Assembly (NCBI RefSeq): GCF_001676385.1
Contig: NZ_LYVJ01000016.1
Coordinates: forward strand, 1-64,000
From: Stenotrophomonas maltophilia
GTDB taxonomy: Bacteria > Pseudomonadota > Gammaproteobacteria > Xanthomonadales > Xanthomonadaceae
Reading direction: 5' to 3'
Length of the DNA: 64,000 bases
Under the pieces are notes generated by a model. That model saw nothing but the letters and a program-made list of their open reading frames with translations, was not told the DNA's origin and made no database searches. Made by a program: the position numbers and the translations under genes. Each line of letters starts with the position of its first letter. The stretch's first letter is position 1. This document shows positions 3,350 to 50,030 of the stretch, piece by piece.

Positions 3350-3924
3350 CGGGTGACCTCTGCCAGCCGTTGCGCCGGCCCCGCCTGGAAGCAGCCGCGA
3401 TGGAACAGCAGCGGTGCCCCGCCGTTCTCGTTGGCCTGGATGATGCGGCCGGCCAGCAGCAGGTGATCGCCGACGGGCCACTGCGCGTGACGGGTGCAGG
3501 TGAGATGGACCACCGCGCCGGCGATGCGTGGTGGCGCATCGTCGTCGTCATCCAGCAGTGCAAGGCCGTCGAAGCGGTTGCGTACCTGCGGATCGGCAAA
3601 GCGCCGCGCCAGTGCTTCCTGGTCGGCCGCCAGCACGCTGATCGCAAAGCGGGTGGCGCGCTGGAAGGTGGACAGGCTCTGCGCGTGCAACGCCAGGTTC
3701 CACAGCACCAGCGGCGGTTGCAGCGAGACCGGCACGAACGAATTGATGGTCAGGCCGACCGGTTTGCGCTGCGCATCGCGGGCGCAGACGATGCCCACCC
3801 CGGTGGGGAAGTGACCGAGCAGCCGCCGCAGGGCACGCGGCGGCATCTCGACCGACGGTACCGGCGCCGGAGCGGGGAACACGCCCGCCCAGGGCCCCGC
3901 GTACGGCAATGTCCCGCCGCTCAT
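3346..3924 (-). CDS. Flavin reductase-like FMN-binding protein
   Basis: A 192-residue protein of the flavin-reductase-like split-barrel family. The N-terminal core ([12 protein letters not shown], then [20 protein letters not shown]) is the typical FMN-contact region. Such enzymes reduce FMN or FAD with NAD(P)H for a partner oxygenase or bind flavin as a cofactor. It overlaps the sodA stop (ATGA, 3921-3924), which suggests a redox or oxidative-stress role. The Asp run DDDDD near residue 125 looks like a surface loop. No oxygenase partner lies nearby. Confidence 0.8.
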
Positions 3925-4550
3925 GAGGCCAGGGCCTGGCGGTAGCGCCGGCCGACCTCGGCCCAGTTGATGATGTTGAAGAACGCACCGATGTAGTCCG
4001 GGCGGCGGTTCTGGTAGTGCAGGTAGTAGGCGTGTTCCCAGACATCCAGCGCCAGGATCGGGGTGTTGCCGGACAGGCCGACGGTCGCGCCCATCAGCGG
4101 GCTGTCCTGGTTGGCGCTGCTTTCGACCTGCAGGCGGCCATCGCGATCGCGGGTCAACCAGGCCCAGCCGCTGCCGAAGCGGGTCTGCGCGGCTCTGGTG
4201 AACGCGTCCCTGAAGGCATCGAAGCCCCCCAGGTCCCGGTCGATGGCCGCCGCCAGTTCGTCATCGGGCGTACCGCCGCTGGGGCTGAGTACGGTCCAGA
4301 ACAGGCTGTGGTTGGCGTGGCCGCCGCCGTTGTTGCGGACCGCGCCGCGATGCGCCTCGGGCACCGCATCGAGATTGGCGATCAGCACCTCGACGGGCCG
4401 CTCGGCCAGGCCGGCCTGCTCGACGGCAGCATTGAGATTGCTGACGTAGGCCTGGTGGTGCTTGCTGTGGTGAATCTCCATCGTGCGCGCATCGAAATGC
4501 GGCTCGAGGGCGTCATAGGCATAGGGGAGCGGGGGAAGCGAGTACGGCAT
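3921..4550 (-). CDS. sodA: Superoxide dismutase, manganese type
   Basis: A 209-residue Fe/Mn superoxide dismutase. The metal ligands H27, H81, D169 and H173 are present ([20 protein letters not shown]). Q148 in [10 protein letters not shown] together with GGGHANHS matches the manganese subfamily. It converts superoxide to peroxide and oxygen in the cytoplasm. ATG 4550 ([13 protein letters not shown]) is the usual SodA start. It heads a three-gene coupled operon, and an FNR-like box lies 65 bases upstream, which suggests oxygen-linked control as known for E. coli sodA. Confidence 0.95.
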
Positions 4551-4614
4551 CGAAGCAATCTCCATGGGGAAGGCCAGGGGCTGGCCGTGGGGAGACTGTT
4601 ATCGCACCTCAACA

Positions 4615-4628: not shown

Positions 4629-4680
4629 GGGGCGGGATTGAAATGCGTGCGCGTTCGTCGCCTTGATTCTTCCTGGCAGG

Positions 4681-4784
4681 CAGGGGCTGATGGGTCAGCG
4701 CAGGACACGCCGTGAACCCATCCATGGGGGCTCGACGGCGCCATCCGTGGCGCCAACGGTCCTGCGCTGACCCATCAGCCCCTG
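4681..4784. repeat. Long inverted-repeat element A (26-bp perfect arms)
   Basis: The arms at 4681-4706 and 4759-4784 are perfect reverse complements and enclose a 52-base core. The core, read on the minus strand, begins CGTTGGCGCCA, continues ATGGCGCC and TCGAGC and contains CCATGGATGGG. The same core in opposite orientation lies inside element B (4973-5078), while the outer stems of the two elements differ. Confidence 0.85.
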
Positions 4785-4844
4785 CAGGACGGCTCCCTGC
4801 GCTGGCGCGGAGACGGAGTCAAAGGCAGGAGCAGGAGCGACGTG

Positions 4845-4907
4845 GTAGTGCCGGCCGCTGGCCGGCAATCAGCGAAGGTCGGGTTGCCGGCCAGCGGCCG
4901 GCACTAC
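4845..4907. repeat. SMAG repeat pair, head to head
   Basis: GTAG at 4845-4848 leads a GC-rich palindrome (TGCCGGCCGCTGGCCGGCA). An inverted copy ends in CTAC at 4904-4907. This is the known Stenotrophomonas SMAG (GTAG-headed REP-like) family in dimer form, and it supports the genus assignment. Confidence 0.85.
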
Positions 4908-4972
4908 CAGAACCCGCCTTTCGAGCCTCGCCGGCGCGCTGTTGCGCTGCCCGCGCTCGCAGGAAACTGTCA

Positions 4973-5078
4973 GGAGGGGGCGGGGGCCGCTGGACAGGAC
5001 CGTTGGCGCCAAGAATGGCGCCATCGAGCACCATGGAGGGGCTTTTGCGGGTCCTGGCCAGCGGCCCCCGCCCCCTCC
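4973..5078. repeat. Long inverted-repeat element B (29-bp arms, one mismatch)
   Basis: The arms at 4973-5001 and 5050-5078 are complementary except at one position. The core, 5001-5049, starts CGTTGGCGCCA and continues ATGGCGCC, TCGAGC and CCATGGAGGGG. That is homologous to the core of element A with different paired arms. It lies between the SMAG pair and the convergent end of the thioredoxin-like gene. Confidence 0.82.
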
Positions 5079-5134
5079 CACACGGATCAACAAAAGCGCC
5101 GGCAGGCGAACCAGCCGCCAGCGCCTTCATCAAC

Positions 5135-6646
5135 TCAACTCAACCAATCCCTGCACCCGCTGTCGGCCTGCTCCCCGCACGCCTGCTGCATCCGCTGCTG
5201 CAGCCGCGCCAGCGTCTGCGCGCCCTGGTGCTTGCCGCTCCACGTCTTCAACTGCCCGGCCAGGCGCTCGAAGCGCTGGCGGGTACGCTGGTGGTAGCCG
5301 GACGGCTGTGCCTCCAGTTCGGCAATCAGCGAGGCGGTTGCCTGCTCGATGCGTGGTGCGTCGTCCGGCGCCAGCTTCAGCAGGCCCTCTACGTAGAGGA
5401 CGCCCCACTGCACGCGGGTGGCCGGGCCCTGGGCACCGTCGTAGGCACGCTTCAGCCACTCCAGCGCACCAGCGGTGTCGCCGCGCTGTTCGGCCAGGTC
5501 GGCCAGTTCGGGCATGTAGTAGTACGGCTGCTCGCTGCGCTTCAGCTCGGCCAGCAACAGCGCCTCCGCGCCGGCGTCGTCGCCGACCTCGCGCAATGCG
5601 TAGGCCGCGCTGCTGATCGTGGCCTGGCGCGCATGCGCATCGGTGGCGGCGGCATCGGCAGCGGCGGCGCGCTGCTTGACCCGGTCCACCAACGCCGTCG
5701 GCAATGCACCCTTCGGCTGCTGCTGCCGGGCCAGCGCGACTTCGGTCAGCGCACGCGACAGCGCGTCATCGGCGCGATTGCCGCGCTCGGCACCGGCGCG
5801 TTCCAGTGCGACCAGCAACTGCTGCCCCAGCGTGTTGCTGGTGGCCGGGCCGGCACTGGCCTGCTTGACCAGGCTGGCACCCGCGTAGCCCAGCAGTTCC
5901 CGGTTGCGGCGCACTTCCGCAGGGTGCGCCAGCACCGCCTGCAGGAGTTCGCGCACTTCGGTGGGCGAGGCTTCTGGCGTGTCGGCGGTGGCCAGGGCCA
6001 GCAGCGCGAAACGGCGTTGCAGAGCGGCGTCGGGGGCGGCCCTGGACAGCTGGCCCAGCACGTCCTGGCTCTTGCGTTCGCCGGCCAGGCGGTTGGCGTC
6101 GACCTCCCAGCCGTAGTCGCCCAGCACCTGCCAATCCTCGGCGGCCAGTGTGTCCGGCGTAGCCAGTGCGGTGGCCAGGGTGGCCGCGACCGCGCTACGG
6201 CGGCCGGCGGCCACGGTCAATGCGCGGGTCAGTTCGGCGGCATCGTTGCCGCCGGCCACGCGGGTGATTTCGTTGCGTTGTGGGTCCAGCACGATCAGGG
6301 TCGGGTAGCCCCGCACGCCGAAGCGCTCGCCCCAGGCCTGCGCACCTTCCTCGTCGCCATCCAGGTAGACCGGAACGAACTTGCCGGTCAGCGCGATGAA
6401 GGCGGGATCCTTGAACAGGCCGGCCTTGAGCTGGTTGCACGGTGGGCACCAGACCGCGCCCCAGTACAGCAGCACCGGCTTGCCGCTGTCGGCGGCCTCG
6501 GCGAAGGCATCATCGACGTCGCCCTGGCGCCAGGCGATGCCCTTGGCCGGTGCGGATGCCCCGGCCGAACTGGCGGTGGCGACGGGGGCCGGGGTGCAGG
6601 CGCTCAGCGCCGAAGCCAGCAGCAACACGGAAAGCGCGACGCGCAT
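5135..6646 (-). CDS. Thioredoxin-fold lipoprotein
   Basis: A 503-residue predicted lipoprotein. The signal peptide ends in the lipobox LSAC, with C17 as the lipidated residue. A thioredoxin domain follows (about residues 40-170) with the active site W66-C67-P-P-C70, and then a long helical C-terminal region rich in TPR-like pairs (about 200-500). It is probably exported and may act as a thiol-disulphide protein in the periplasm. The start could be ATG 6646 or 6655; both keep the signal peptide. No disulphide-pathway partner lies beside it, so its substrate is unknown. Confidence 0.78.
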   Translation of the reverse strand: MRVALSVLLLASALSACTPAPVATASSAGASAPAKGIAWRQGDVDDAFAEAADSGKPVLLYWGAVWCPPCNQLKAGLFKDPAFIALTGKFVPVYLDGDEEGAQAWGERFGVRGYPTLIVLDPQRNEITRVAGGNDAAELTRALTVAAGRRSAVAATLATALATPDTLAAEDWQVLGDYGWEVDANRLAGERKSQDVLGQLSRAAPDAALQRRFALLALATADTPEASPTEVRELLQAVLAHPAEVRRNRELLGYAGASLVKQASAGPATSNTLGQQLLVALERAGAERGNRADDALSRALTEVALARQQQPKGALPTALVDRVKQRAAAADAAATDAHARQATISSAAYALREVGDDAGAEALLLAELKRSEQPYYYMPELADLAEQRGDTAGALEWLKRAYDGAQGPATRVQWGVLYVEGLLKLAPDDAPRIEQATASLIAELEAQPSGYHQRTRQRFERLAGQLKTWSGKHQGAQTLARLQQRMQQACGEQADSGCRDWLS

Positions 6647-6779
6647 CGGCAGCATCTCGAAGGGCAGGATGACAGGCCATTGTAGGAACGGCCGGGGAAG
6701 GCGCTGATTCAGTTTGCTCATGACGGGCGTGCTGCAGGGCATGACGCCGCCGGTGCCGGGCCATGCGCGGCGAATGCCT

Positions 6780-7229
6780 TCAGGCCGCTCCCCGCACCAT
6801 CTGCTGGTACACCAGTCCGTTGAACTCGCCGACGTCGCCATCCAGCACGAACCCATAGCGAAGATAGGTGGGCACTGCATTGAGCGAAGCGCGCACGGTC
6901 ATCTGCGGCGCGCGCAGATGCGGCAGCACGGCTTCGAACAGGGCATGGCCGATGCCCTGGCCCTGGCAGGCGGGATCGACGAACAGCATCGCCAGGTGGC
7001 GTCCTTCCTTCAGTTCGATTACGCCGACGATGCGGTCTTCCTGCTCGGCCGCCAGGATATGGCTGTCGCCCTGCAGGCGCGCGCCGAACGCATCGGCTGC
7101 AGCGACACGGCTGAAGGTGGCGACGCCGGCCGCGCTGAGCGAAGGCGCGACTGCCGCATCGAACGCAGCCAGGCAGACCGCGCTGATCGCGGGCAGGTCA
7201 TCGACGTGGGCAGGGCGGATCCTCGGCAT
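6780..7229 (-). CDS. GNAT-family N-acetyltransferase
   Basis: A 149-residue single-domain GNAT enzyme. The acetyl-CoA-binding motif A is at LAMLFVDPACQGQGIGHALF (Q-x2-G-x-G/A form). It transfers an acetyl group to an unknown amine substrate in the cytoplasm. ATG 7229 (MPRIRPAHVDDLPAIS) is the normal GNAT beginning, and an upstream start would only add unrelated residues. It is divergent from the luciferase-like gene 66 bases away. Confidence 0.82.
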   Translation of the reverse strand: MPRIRPAHVDDLPAISAVCLAAFDAAVAPSLSAAGVATFSRVAAADAFGARLQGDSHILAAEQEDRIVGVIELKEGRHLAMLFVDPACQGQGIGHALFEAVLPHLRAPQMTVRASLNAVPTYLRYGFVLDGDVGEFNGLVYQQMVRGAA

Positions 7230-30213: not shown

Positions 30214-30303
30214 CTTGCGTGTTCCGTCGACTCGGCCATGAGCGCGTCGGCGGTTGGGCCTCCGCCCTGGGGCGGGCTGGGGTATTTCACGGAGAGAACA
30301 GGG

Positions 30304-33300
30304 ATGTTGGAAAGAACTGATCAGATTGTCCGTTGTGCGACGGGAGTGCTTGCTGCCTACGCCCTTTGTGGGGCGTTGGTCGCCGCACATGCCGCACCCG
30401 CTATGGCCGCACCCGCAGCGAGTGCAGGCGTTGACGGCGTGCGCCTGGAGTATGCTGCGGACGGAACCACGACTGTCACCGATGCCCTTGGGAAAAAGAC
30501 GGTCTATTCCCTCACTTCTGGAGGCATGTCCGATCCGCCTCGAAAGGTGACGGGGCTTGCCGACGAGCAGGGCGAGCAGACCTACAACTACCTGCCCTTG
30601 GACACCGATCCTGCACGGCGCCTGGGCACGTCGGTTGATCGGCGGGGTGTGCGGACGGACCGCGCTTACAGCGAGATCAATGATCCTGTGTTGGGCTTGG
30701 TCAATGCCACCACGACCACGGATGCGGTCGGCACCCCGGATCAGCGCGTCAGCGAGACATGGGTAACGGCGGACAGCAATCGGCTGGTGCAACAGACCGT
30801 CGGTAACCGTGAGGCCCGCATCACACGCAATACCCGCCTTCAACCGACCACCATCTCCGTCCGCGATACGGTGACCGGTGACACCCGCGTCACCACGCAA
30901 ACATACTGCGAGGCAGAGGGGCCGGAGTGCCCGCAGGTTGGGCTGCTGCGCAGCATTGACGGCCCGCGCACCGACGTGGCCGATATCACCACCTACGCCT
31001 ACTATGCGGCGGACGATGCAGGGTGCGCGACCAACGGTGCCTGCAGCTACCGCAAGGGCGACCTGCGCAGCGTGACCGATGCGATGGGCCAGACGATCGA
31101 GACCTTGGCCTACGACCTGTTCGGGCGCCCGCTGTCGGTGAAGGATGCCAACGGCGTGGTCACCGATTACACGTACCATGCTCGCGGCTGGCCGACCTCG
31201 GTCATCGTACGTGGCGCCACCACTGCCGAGGATCGGGTTACCCAGATCAGCTACTGGCCGACCGGCCAGGTGCAACAGATCACCGAGCCCGACGGCAGCA
31301 GCGTCACCTACGTCTACGACGCCGCACAGCGGCTGACTGACATCGCCGACAGCGCCGGCAACACCATCCACTACACGCTGGACAATGCCGGCAATCGTCT
31401 CAAGGAAGACACGCTCGATGCAGGAGGCACCCTGCGCCGTACACTGGCACGGACGTTCAACACGCTCGGCCAGCTGACCGCACTGAAGGATGCGGGCAAT
31501 CACGCAACCGGCTTTGTCTACGATGCCAATGGCAATCTGCAGACGGTGACCGACGCCCTGCAGCGCGTGACCAGCCAGCAGTACGACCCGCTGAACCGCC
31601 TGGCGCAGACCCTGCAGGACGTCGGCGGCGTCGCGGCGGAGATCCGCAGTCAGTACAACGCGCTGGACCAGGTCACCCAGGTCACTGACCCGAAGGGACT
31701 GCACACCACCTACGCCTACAACGGTTTCGGTGATCTGACCGGGCAAGTCAGCCCGGACCGCGGCGCCAGCAGCTTCACCGTGGATGCGGCAGGCAACCGC
31801 AAGACGGCCACCGATGCGCGCGGCGTCACCGCTACCTATCACTACGATGTGCTGAATCGTTTGATCGGCGTCGCCTACCCGGACCCCAATCTGGACGTGG
31901 GCTACAGCTATGACGTGGCGCCAGCGGTCTGCACCGCCGACGAGCGCTTTGCCAAGGGGCGCCTGGGGCAGGTGCTGCACGCCAATGGCAGCACCCAGTA
32001 CTGCCACGACCGCTTCGGTCAGGTCACCCGCAAGGTGCAGACCGTCAACGGTGTCGCCAGCACGCTGCGCTATGCCTACAGCAAGGCGGGCCGCCTGACC
32101 GCATTGAGCTACCCCGACGGCAGCGTGGCCGACTACGTGCGCGATACCCAGGGCCGCATCAGCCAGATCGGCCTGACCCGGCCCGGCCAGGCACGCCAGA
32201 TCGTGGTGAACAATGTGACCTACGCGGCCTTCGGCCCGGCGACCGGCTGGACCTACGGCAATGGCCGCCAGCTGCAGCGTCCGCTGGACCTGGACTATCG
32301 GCCGCAGGCGGTGCATGACCCGGCCGCGGGCGGCCTGTCACTGGGCTACGGCTATGACCCGGTCGGTTCGGTCACCGAGCTGAAGAACGGCGCAGGCTCG
32401 ACGGTGCTGGCCAAGTATGCCTATGACGCGCTGGGTCGCCTGACCCAGACCCAGGACGGCACGACCGGCACCCCGATTGAAACCTATGCGTATGACGCCA
32501 CCGGCAATCGCACCGCGCTGACCACTTCGGCAGGCACCGCCAGCTACACCTATCCCGCAACCAGCCACCGGCTGACTGCCGTGGATGGCGAGGCGCGCAA
32601 CCATGACGCGGTGGGCAACACCACCAGCATCGGCAGCAAGACCTTCACCTACAGCGATGCCAACCGCATGAGCGCGGTGAAGCAGGGCAATGCCGTGCTA
32701 GAAAGCTACGGTTACAACCATCGCGGGGAGCGCGTGCTGCGTACCCCGGCCAGTGGCGCAGCTCAGATCACGCTGTACGACGAAGCAGGGCAGTGGCTGG
32801 CAACTACTCGGCCACGGGCCAGGTGCAGCAGCAGGCCATCTGGCTGGACAACTACCCGGTAGCGCTGATCAATGTGCCGGCTACCAGCGTGCCGGAGCTG
32901 GCCTACGTGCAGCCGGATCATCTGGGTACGCCGCGCGTAGTGATCGATCCGGTGCGCGATGTGGCGATCTGGGAGTGGAGCAACAAGAGCGAGGTGTTCG
33001 GCAACCAGATTCCGAGTGCCGATCCGGATGGTGATGGTGTGGTGTTCGAGCTGGCCCTGCGCTTCCCGGGCCAGCAGGCGACGGATGCGAGTGGATTGTT
33101 CTACAACTACCAGCGGGAATACGACCCGGCGTTGGGGCGGTATTCGCAGAGCGATCCGATTGGGTTGATGGGGGGGATCTCGACCTACGGGTACGCTGGC
33201 GCCTCTCCGACCAGGCGGGTCGACTCACTGGGCCTCACCGACCTAAACTATATCCCGCCCTACGATAATCCTGATTCATACCTTGGCAACAAAATGATTC

Positions 33301-41520: not shown

Positions 41521-41639
41521 TAGGTATTGCGAGGTCGTCGGTCACGGGGCGAGTATGAGGGCATTAGACCAGCGCACTCGTGTCGTGGTCGCCTTCCGCT
41601 GCTGCGATGCGCGTGGCTGTCGGATCCCCGGAGATGGGC

Positions 41640-42772
41640 TATTGCTATGACGTGGCGCCAGCGGTCTGCACCGCCGACGAGCGCTTTGCCAAGGGGCGCC
41701 TGGGGCAGGTGCTGCACGCCAATGGCAGCACCCAGTACTGCCACGACCGCTTCGGTCAGGTCACCCGCAAGGTGCAGACCGTCAACGGTGTCGCCAGCAC
41801 GCTGCGCTATGCCTACAGCAAGGCGGGCCGCCTGACCGCATTGAGCTACCCCGACGGCAGCGTGGCCGACTACGTGCGCGATACCCAGGGCCGCATCAGC
41901 CAGATCGGCCTGACCCGGCCCGGCCACGCACGCCAGATCGTGGTGAACAATGTGACCTACGCGGCCTTCGGCCCGGCGACCGGCTGGACCTACGGCAATG
42001 GCCGCCAGCTGCAGCGTCCGCTGGACCTGGACTATCGGCCGCAGGCGGTGCATGACCCGGCCGCGGGCGGCCTGTCACTGGGCTACGGCTATGACCCGGT
42101 CGGTTCGGTCACCGAGCTGAAGAACGGAGCAGGCTCGACGGTGCTGGCCAAGTACGCCTATGACGCGCTGGGTCGCCTGACCCAGACCCAGGACGGGACG
42201 ACCGGCCCCCCGATTGAAACCTATGCGTATGACGCCACCGGCAATCGCACCGCGCTGACCACCTCGGCAGGCACCGCCAGCTACACCTATCCCGCAACCA
42301 GCCACCGCCTGACTGCAGTGGATGGTGAAGCGCGCAACCATGACGCGGTGGGCAACACCACCAGCATCGGCAGCAAGACCTTCACCTACAACGATGCGAA
42401 CCGCATGAATGCGGTGAAGCAGGGCAATGCCGTCCAGGTGCCAACCCGAATTCGCCCACGCGCGGAACAGGTGACATATTTTCAGGCGTTGACGCCAATC
42501 TTACGAGCTTCGTGAATCATCATTTGGCTGAAGGGTCAACGGTATACACGCTCAGCTTTGATACGACTGAACATAGCGAGCTTCAGATTCAAGACTATGC
42601 CGAGCAGTTGGGGGCAGCGACCGGAGGGCTTTGCGCCATCCAAACATCCTCCGCAATCAATGGAATTGAACCATTTAAGAGTCTTGGTGTTAAATTTACG
42701 CCTGCAACATTGGGTAAGTCCTTGTCAAAGCTTCCTGGCGTTAAGATCAGGATCTATTCTCCAAAGGGGTGA
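41640..42772 (+). pseudogene. Displaced RHS core fragment joined out of frame to a toxin tip (cassette 5)
   Basis: Core sequence 41640-42434 is nearly base-identical to 31906-32697 of the main gene, then stops abruptly at KQGNAV without the usual YSQSDPIGL end. From 42437 a different frame reads a tip of about 110 residues (GANPNSPTRGTGDIFSGVDA, SELQIQDYAEQLGAATGG, GVKIRIYSPKG) to TGA 42772. Core and tip frames disagree, so the junction is a non-functional recombination scar. The immunity gene starts four bases later. Confidence 0.78.
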
Positions 42773-44344: not shown

Positions 44345-45209
44345 CAACTGCGTCTACGGCACGCTGGAGTTGGGCTACATCCAGCAGGATCACCTAGGGT
44401 ACGCCGCGCGTGGTGATCGATCCGGTACGGGAGGTCGCGATCTGGGAGTGGAGCAACAAGAGCGAGGTGTTCGGCAACCAGATTCCGAGTGCCGACCCGG
44501 ATGGGGATGGCGTGGCGTTCGAGCTGGCGCTGCGCTTCCCGGCCCAGCAGGCGACGGATGCGAGTGGGCTGTTCTACAATTACCAGCGCGAGTACGACCC
44601 GGCAGTGGGGCGGTATTCGCAGAGTGATCCGATTGGGCTGGACGGAGGTGTGTCGACATACTCGTATGTCGATGGAAGTCCAGCTTTGTTCGCGGATCCG
44701 ATTGGGCTGCAAAGAACGCTAGTTCGCTTCATCCCCCGCCCAGGAGGGGCAGTTGGTTTCAACCCAAATGATCCTCAGAACTACCAATCGCGTAGAGGTG
44801 GGGAATACTCGTCCAATTCAGAATTCCTAAACGCATTGGTGGCGGCGAGTCGGTTGTCCGGTTTGGAAAATTGGATGAATCCAATTTGCGTTAACCAATC
44901 TGTGGCCGCTGCATTGCTTAGTAAGGCACTGGCATCACCCTCATCAGAGGAGAGGTCGGTTCCCTGGCCTGATCGGAAGAGAGGGGGGTACTCTTGCATC
45001 TGTCGAGCAAGTAGGGATGGTCGTAGTCCCGACAATTGCTCAATCGGTGACAAGGAGTTTGCTTTCGGTTACGGTTTCAGCAGTCGGTTGTCTAAGGCAA
45101 AAAAATGGCTGAGAAGGACGCGAAGGACAAATTGGGTGCCAAGTCGACACACCACATTCAATGTAGGTACACAAGCCCGACCGGAGAGGGGATCATCCCA
45201 CGTGGGTAA
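44345..45209 (+). pseudogene. Displaced short RHS core fragment with toxin tip (cassette 7)
   Basis: The core starts at a decayed GTLELGYIQQDHLG, has a frame break near 44400, then is open from 44410 (WEWSNKSEVFGNQIPSADPD, YSQSDPIGLDGG). The tip after DPIGLQRTL spans about 150 residues (WMNPICVNQSVAAALLSKAL, GGYSCICRASRDGRSPDNCS). At an A7 run (45099-45105) the zero frame continues without a stop into the immunity protein. The -1 frame gives MAEKDAKDKLGAKSTHHIQ and stops at TAA 45207, which is the ending expected for this tip type. Confidence 0.75.
45099..45105 (+). promoter_or_regulatory. In-frame A AAA AAA slippery heptamer
   Basis: Codons read gcA AAA AAA tgg, the X XXY YYZ layout of -1 ribosomal frameshift sites. 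Zero frame leads to a toxin-immunity fusion, -1 frame to normal toxin termination. It may equally be a deletion from A8. I did not find a convincing stimulatory hairpin just downstream. Confidence 0.5.
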
Positions 45210-45675
45210 TTTGCCTACAGCCCTTTCGGAAGATTTCTCAGTTCTTCTGGATTCCGGGGACATGGCCGGTGCTGCATCACTGATTCGTAGTGCCGCTGAA
45301 TCGGGCTCCGCAGAAGCAATCTTTCTTTCTTCGAGCTTTAGTCGCCCTCACGAAAGCATCGATGAGTTCGAGTTAAGAAGCTTGGCTGAGGTTGAGCTCT
45401 CAGCAGCGAAAGGGTACGCCCCCGCGCAATATAGACTCGGCTGCTATCTACAATTCGGAGACTTTGTGGATGTGGATCCTGTGGGGGCAGCCCAGTACTT
45501 TAAGCTGGCCGCGAAGGCTGGATATCCTCCCGCAATGTATGAGTATGGGTTGGCGCTTTTCCATGGCATAGGTGTGGATAGCAAGCATGACGAAGCGATT
45601 TCGTGGATCACGCTCTCGGCTGAGAAAGGAGATGAGACTGCTGCTGAGTTCTTGAAGAATATACGAGAAAGCTAG
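45202..45675 (+). CDS. Sel1-repeat probable immunity protein (cassette 7)
   Basis: A 157-residue protein from GTG 45202, overlapping the -1-frame toxin stop (GTGGGTAA). Sel1 repeats are clear: LAEVELSAAKGYAPAQYRLG, AAQYFKLAAKAGYPPAMYEY, AISWITLSAEKGDETAAEF. No signal peptide, so cytoplasmic. In the zero frame it is continuous with the toxin tip upstream, so it may also be made as the C-terminal half of a fusion. Confidence 0.7.
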   Translation: MGNLPTALSEDFSVLLDSGDMAGAASLIRSAAESGSAEAIFLSSSFSRPHESIDEFELRSLAEVELSAAKGYAPAQYRLGCYLQFGDFVDVDPVGAAQYFKLAAKAGYPPAMYEYGLALFHGIGVDSKHDEAISWITLSAEKGDETAAEFLKNIRES

Positions 45676-49820: not shown

Positions 49821-49865
49821 GGCTAGGCTCCGTGCAGGGCAATCGGTAGCCGCCACCCAGAAAAG

Positions 49866-50030
49866 TGGCGGACGGTGCGTGGTTCGAACACCGGGTTGAT
49901 GTCAGTCCGGCGGGCCCGAAGGCCCCCACGCACCGCCCGCCATAGCCGGCAGACGGATTGCCAGCCGGCGCCACGCTAAGGTGGCGCCGGCTGGCAAGCG
50001 CATACATCAACATCAACTCGGGTGTTCGAA
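49866..50030 (-). promoter_or_regulatory. Structured leader with competing inverted repeats
   Basis: A 16-bp stem with one mismatch pairs 49867-49882 with 49926-49941, enclosing GGGCC-cgaa-GGCCC. A perfect 17-bp hairpin lies at 49958-49974/49981-49997. A third pairing, 49883-49902 with 50010-50030, cannot form together with the first stem without a pseudoknot. It precedes the minus-strand gene at 49820 and could be a regulatory RNA leader. Confidence 0.5.

Follow-up and report, generated by a model that had tools for sequence, protein, structure and literature searches.

A head-to-head pair of palindromes in Stenotrophomonas maltophilia as copies of a candidate mobile repeat with a fixed core and a freely varying paired stem

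Two long palindromes, here called A and B, lie between a superoxide dismutase gene and a thioredoxin-like gene in a 64,000-nucleotide stretch of a Stenotrophomonas maltophilia genome (contig NZ_LYVJ01000016.1, positions 1 to 64,000), the window of this analysis. On the comparisons made, it is somewhat more likely than not that A and B together make up a single head-to-head doublet and are both copies of a palindromic repeat that is non-autonomous and probably mobile. The repeat would belong to a gammaproteobacterial superfamily with YPAL of Yersinia as a member. Element A spans 4680..4785 on the minus strand, with arms at 4680-4706 and 4759-4785 that are 100% complementary (27/27 bp, inverted-repeat search). 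Its core, 4707..4758, holds two small hairpins, P2 (GGCGCCACGGATGGCGCC) and P3 (GAGCCCCCATGGATGGGTTCACGGC). Element B spans 4973..5078 on the plus strand; its arms, 4973-5001 and 5050-5078, are 29 nt long and 97% complementary (28/29 bp), and its core, 5002..5049, again holds P2 (GGCGCCAAGAATGGCGCC) and P3. Both cores were delimited from sequence and consensus structure. The initial annotation of this DNA had described the two elements as oppositely oriented, with cores alike at 26 of their first 29 bases and CAGGAC ahead of both, and the sequence bears this out; the stems of A and B, which it had called different, show no likeness by eye. Its pairing of arms within each element also stands, with 27 and 28 paired bases in place of the 26 and 29 bp first given, and the gap between the palindromes measures 187 bases rather than 190.

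The two palindromes are far beyond chance, because the core recurs through the genome. Folded as RNA, A and B lie 9.5-11.2 standard deviations below 200 dinucleotide shuffles, and folded as DNA 10.1-11.4; no shuffle reached so low an energy in either case. A core pattern allowing up to 3 mismatches returned two core types, with 31 copies of the first and 9 of the other (hand count). A covariance model built from 26 copies (R1) matches 54 places, counted on the better strand, in 34 sources of the S. maltophilia genome, a lower bound, with 33 of the 34 sources picked for holding a core match. A scores 111.9 bits (4681-4783) and B 91.8 bits (4976-5076) with R1, both being among its building sequences. 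Its background reaches 33-45 bits on the wrong strand of true copies, 36.7 on a SMAG-type pair and 41 on another stretch, and it misses some P3 matches (22.1 bits at L144, 13.9 bits at L145). Among the copies of this genome P2 is present in several re-paired forms, and in five (L009, L019, L025, L028 and L030), as in relatives (L087, L345 and L367), the P3 loop is enlarged by a self-hairpin stretch, GGGCGCTTTGCTTGCGAAGCACTGCTTCGCAAGCGCCC. The initial annotation had proposed a genome search for further copies and had asked whether their arms would pair; many copies were found genome-wide, and their arms do.

What is kept from copy to copy is the fold. A core of about 50-60 nt carries P2 and P3 on a long stem, most often of about 25-35 bp and reaching 49 bp at the longest. 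For 32 copies of the S. maltophilia genome, RNAalifold predicts 40 pairs, 25 of them with change on both sides. The broadest test is an alignment of 96 cores from many genera (A4, made with MAFFT), restricted to rows with stems of at least 18 bp, one per locus, with identical cores dropped. Over 23 pairs, 93.4% of 2205 cells pair, and 21 of the 23 pairs have changed on both sides. The 517 cells with two-sided change compare with a shuffled mean of 122, and the covariation score is 0.637 versus 0.161 after shuffling; pairing falls to 28-43% when partners are slid as a control. The P1 count in this alignment leans to pairing because its rows were selected for stem length, and its named rows were chosen without use of P2. 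At positions matched by P3 only, 57 of 78 testable stems reach a score of at least 16, against 2 among 1494 control positions. Copies printed from four genomes, each of another family, all differ in their stems, which are 17-49 bp long, most of them near perfect and the best pairing at 49/49. For one locus of genome G298, 36 of the 49 BLAST pieces listed reach no farther than the core and a few bases of the stem, with 40 scored out of 94 candidates. Arms thus vary among copies and genera yet remain paired, which is one of the new points here, and the earlier claim that the fold is kept rather than the stem sequence is strongly supported.

All 19 close pairs of the S. maltophilia genome, A/B included, are head-to-head (-/+), with total lengths of 340-439 bp; the A/B doublet (4680..5078) measures 396 bp between model ends and is a possible unit. 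Two of the 19 (L059 and L067) hold a copy with an enlarged P3 that was found by R1 and missed by the arm finder. Here and below, gene positions around copies other than A and B, including their intergenic placement, rest on crude open reading frame (ORF) calls, which also overlap many copies. By these calls the genes on either side are convergent for 9 doublets, tandem for 8 and divergent for 2, a classification that is unsure for about 5 doublets whose nearest called gene is more than 0.8 kb away. In this genome, close copies form head-to-head doublets whatever the gene arrangement. In genome G039, 13 of 14 pairs under 700 bp are -/+ and one is +/+, and all five close pairs of G298 and G149 are -/+. 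As an observation apart, in two loci (L055 and L065) a GGGGTCAGATCC... repeat, of the kind bordering some tyrosine transposases, lies inside a doublet between the two hairpins.

The family is widespread and patchy. A pattern for one core type matches 41 of 61 same-genus genomes: 33 have 17-74 matches, 8 have 1-4, and 20 have none. One same-genus genome (G004) has no copy by the core pattern or by R1. With R1, whose genome counts are lower bounds owing to strict filters, 36 of 149 genomes of the family match, as do 46 of 274 Gammaproteobacteria genomes in 41 of 221 genera, often with many copies; two of these 46, G072 and G280, have a best E above 1e-6 and might reflect hairpin background. Matches occur in 17 of 299 genomes of the phylum, all 17 in Gammaproteobacteria or nearer, the share of the 299 from outside the class being unstated. 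A P3 scan of named genomes gives at least 119 stretches. The 80 listed belong to gammaproteobacteria wherever the name allows judgement, two being named only Proteobacteria; hosts include Xanthomonas, Marinobacter, Microbulbifer, Rheinheimera, Shewanella, Idiomarina, Pectobacterium and Methylotuvimicrobium, among others. No recurrent gene was found beside the element in more than five loci, judging cluster names by eye.

The closest described relative is YPAL, a miniature mobile repeat of about 168 bp in Yersinia and Erwinia carotovora, which Delihas 2007 (PMC2759123) prints as RU-2 and equates with YPAL. Element A aligns with the printed RU-2 core over 48 bases with a score of 53, whereas the best of 300 shuffles scores 25. 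The shared core reads GCGCCAnGGATGGCGC...TCGAGCC..CATGGATG..TT.ACGGCGT. Both families are multi-copy and intergenic and have a long stable stem. However, local alignments of A and B with RU-2 end at the core and do not extend to the 168-bp YPAL unit with its own arms, and the family is therefore filed as a YPAL relative rather than as YPAL. Its arms are unlike YPAL's and unlike each other, its hosts are class-wide, and it forms doublets. For YPAL, the review PMC2229807 describes recent mobility, with empty and filled sites, 3-26 bp target duplications spanning or adjoining dyad symmetry, and no TA ends; PMC2847712 counts YPAL in Yersinia genomes, plus 3 in E. coli. In the open-access literature searched we found no statement of YPAL-like cores across Gammaproteobacteria; De Gregorio 2006, the original YPAL description, lay outside that search and may state a wider spread. 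No Rfam family lies above threshold at the element, where the hits are chance microRNA hairpins and sub-threshold Ysr224 (RF02770), which aligns along the core on the complement strand with at best 40.1 bits against a gathering score of 70. ERIC is likewise a palindromic miniature repeat and probably shares GAGCTTACAT. The review PMC2229807 gives ERIC a length of 127 bp and TA ends.

REP-type repeats and their transposases offer a second comparison. The GTAG REPs of S. maltophilia, named SMAG in PMC3733652, are described there as intergenic palindromes of uneven distribution, mainly head-to-head dimers and mostly downstream of genes, all of which recalls the A/B family. However, GTAG REPs have stems of 5-13 bp, a GTAG foot and cognate RAYT genes, whereas the A/B family has stems of mostly 25-35 bp and no GTAG foot. 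The same source reports TIR repeats bordering tyrosine transposases (TIRYT genes 1152 and 4509); these repeats too are multi-copy, and the 1152 type is self-complementary and occurs at short spacing. We surveyed 21 tyrosine transposase genes from 10 genomes (5 from the S. maltophilia genome, 16 from nine relatives) with about 3 kb on each side (1.5 kb for one). None of the 21 is bordered by an A/B-type element, the best R1 score being 25.1 bits; one loose 17-bp palindrome was called 1.7 kb away from one of them. Of the 21 genes, 20 are spanned by an inverted repeat, namely GTAG- or GTGG-footed REPs, GGGGTCAGATC... or AAAAGGGGACGGAG..., and the repeats around the non-REP transposase genes, GGGGTCAGATC... 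and AAAAGGGGACGGAG..., are not the A/B core. Y1_Tnp was rejected as a marker gene, being present in 58 of 61 same-genus genomes and so without discrimination.

Mismatch types in the stems bear on which strand folds. In a cruciform no preference for G·T over A·C could arise, since a G·T on one strand reads as an A·C on the other. The key count used copies found by P3 only, since model-found copies favour paired stems and, with R1, G·U: 88 exact P3 matches yielded 55 that pass the stem filter and 43 dereplicated copies, whose arms were scored symmetrically. On the core strand these 43 copies hold G·T in 56 cells and A·C in 8; G·T prevails in 26 copies and A·C in 4, with 13 tied (p=5.9e-5). Within the S. 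maltophilia genome, 7 copies show a G·T excess versus 1 (10 ties), and model matches from other genera lean the same way, 17 versus 6 (30 ties), with R1's own bias toward G·U. For SMAG-type hairpins with the GTAG foot, a small set, the count is 29 to 19 (p=0.19), so the asymmetry is not automatic for hairpins of this genome. Sorted by the direction of neighbouring genes, G·T versus A·C is 19/5 where transcription arrives antisense only, 12/3 where from neither side, 13/2 where sense only and 10/3 where both. ORF-overlapped copies, counted apart, behave alike (5 vs 1, 10 vs 3, 17 vs 4 and 9 vs 4). The core strand thus seems to fold as a single strand, RNA or single-stranded DNA, and neither a cruciform nor mRNA read through from upstream seems to be the molecule that needs the fold.

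A single-stranded fold would also suit a structured RNA, that is, a transcribed core strand forming a Y-shaped RNA with a cell function (small RNA, protein-binding or processing signal), its copies kept by selection. The strong covariation and the tolerance of one strand for G·U over A·C fit this proposal, PMC2267715 rates YPAL as structured, and Ysr224 aligns below threshold. However, Ysr224 corresponds to the complement strand, no Rfam family rises above threshold at the element, dozens of copies occur per genome, a same-genus genome lacks them by two methods, orthologous sites differ in presence and absence, and the gene next to the right end more often runs antisense and terminates there. 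We consider this explanation unlikely. Less probable still is a 3' untranslated element whose hairpin would stabilise the upstream gene's mRNA or bring it to an end. Antisense gene ends outnumber gene starts at the right end, 83 to 41, and the counts at the left end are 54 and 59 (crude calls, a few loci counted twice and many copies ORF-overlapped); composite 3' regions occur in the S. maltophilia genome, and the review PMC2229807, where it treats YPAL, has it co-transcribed with upstream genes (it prints "co-translated"). In such an mRNA, however, the observed G·T pairs would turn into A·C mismatches, and the excess persists, at 19 to 5, in copies that lie in the path of antisense transcription only. 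By eye the printed hairpins are not followed by an obvious T-run, and 10 of the 19 doublets are not between convergent genes. The 3' regions of many copies (L054, L071 and others) have a layout of stop codon, short hairpin (GCAGGGCTGCGCCCTGC), CAACAGC-rich linker and then palindrome; the linker together with the short hairpin seems to form a recurring repeat in its own right.

The arms might instead be target DNA copied in inverted form, or pre-existing hairpins with the core inserted in the loop. Arms that differ in every printed copy of four genomes from different families, pairing at up to 49/49 bp, would agree with this origin, as would the YPAL targets described in the review PMC2229807, which extend across or lie next to a dyad symmetry and are duplicated over 3-26 bp. 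However, stems within a genome show family likeness by eye (G143, G237 and the S. maltophilia genome), and for every one-armed site seen a deletion scar is an alternative reading. A target-site origin lost weight because arms within a genome looked related, and we now regard it as very unlikely. A DNA cruciform or protein-binding palindrome, such as a nucleoid or gyrase site, is scarcely credible: the palindromes fold both as DNA and as RNA and such roles have been given to REPs, with supercoiling mentioned in PMC3733652 in that context, but the two strands would then be alike and G·T and A·C equal, where 56 to 8 was found.

Several observations weigh against a mobile repeat whose core strand folds. 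The one-type core pattern overstates patchiness in the genus; one genome (G051) has none by pattern and at least 26 by R1. B alone matches RU-2 weakly, with a score of 27 compared with 22 for the best shuffle. In blastn searches with one query each, B gave no plasmid match and the copy of L122 no phage match. Copies in G039 show no replication-strand bias (40 vs 34, p=0.56, with the origin taken as the contig start and the terminus as the middle). Of the 17 close pairs in named loci, only 8 are -/+; 4 are +/-, 3 +/+ and 2 -/-, partly from Xanthomonas arrays. The G·T to A·C count is not significant over the 23 pairs of A4 (33 to 24), and three sites in relatives show no G·T excess (19 to 14, p=0.49). 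Inspection by eye of L082-L111 and the matches listed of L321-L380 showed no cleanly empty site bearing a target duplication, and several empty sites among the matches listed read as deletion scars (L088, L098, L335 and L366); because of these, loss may explain part of the site polymorphism. Over seven site-types, 24 stem columns vary on one side only and 9, from three site-types, hold two Watson-Crick types. Site polymorphism, by contrast, speaks for a mobile repeat. At the superoxide dismutase site, 30 orthologous loci gave 28 readable intergenic pieces, of which 8 contain A and 7 contain B, and some empty sites still have a single arm or a remnant of the core (L088 and L098). By eye, among the matches listed for other sites, arms and core differ at one place in the L072 set, L345 has its core inverted, L366 has lost a central part, and there are loops, P2 or P3, that carry insertions. 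At one such site five genomes (L355, L357, L360, L361 and L368) carry an insertion of about 100 bases in the P2 loop.

The initial annotation had offered a structural RNA or a mobile palindrome maintained by hairpin-based replication. A mobile element is favoured because of copy number, patchiness, doublets and kinship with YPAL. The hairpin-replication part fared less well: single-strand folding of the core strand has support, but hairpin-based replication and templating of one arm on the other stay conjectural, and orthologous arms show more one-sided than two-sided changes. The mechanism we propose would require the core strand to fold single-stranded, as DNA exposed at replication or as RNA. 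A putative enzyme would read the Y-shaped core, not the stem sequence. Copies unable to fold would stop spreading, leaving stems paired while their sequence drifts. In Stenotrophomonas the spreading unit may be the doublet, and after insertion copies would decay through one-sided mutation and deletion.

The surroundings of A and B hold further features. AACTGTC lies just 5' of the B stem (4965..4971, plus strand), and a diverged form, AGCCGTC, lies beside A (4788..4794, minus strand). CTGTC stands at the 5' side of the stem in 33 of 47 copies of the S. maltophilia genome and 4 of 18 Xanthomonas copies, and in none of 54 other named copies or 45 copies in four other genomes. Between A and B, at 4843..4909, is an inverted pair of GTAG-type REPs, a separate repeat family, of SMAG type, with 26 bp arms (100%). 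The iron/manganese superoxide dismutase gene (3921..4565, minus strand; Pfam Sod_Fe_N and Sod_Fe_C) has its start toward A. The thioredoxin-like protein gene (5135..6880, minus strand; Pfam Thioredoxin_7) has its 3' end toward B, whose core is antisense to it; between its stop and B, a terminator-like hairpin followed by TTTTGTT is visible by eye on the minus strand (5092-5128). Farther along the window, 28000-52000 is an island of low guanine-plus-cytosine content (0.56-0.63 in 4-kb bins, versus 0.69 ahead of it). It contains an RHS-repeat protein (30238-32862), two ORFs (41580-42515 and 44410-45675) that share phrog_10385 with that protein, and a C4 antisense RNA (Rfam RF01695, 73.1 bits, 49861-49947, minus strand).

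More tentatively, and with the odds on balance against it, the family may represent an undescribed, class-wide mobility system that recognises a single-stranded Y fold (the P2/P3 core) on any pairing stem, with doublets as the moving unit and an enzyme that would not be of the RAYT or TIRYT type. The comparisons as such turn a little-studied Yersinia repeat into one branch of a class-wide family with a testable rule: core and fold stay constant, the stem may have any sequence that pairs, and a single strand matters. Should the enzyme exist, it would act as a structure-reading recombinase. The covariance model would allow such palindromes, now unnamed, to be annotated.
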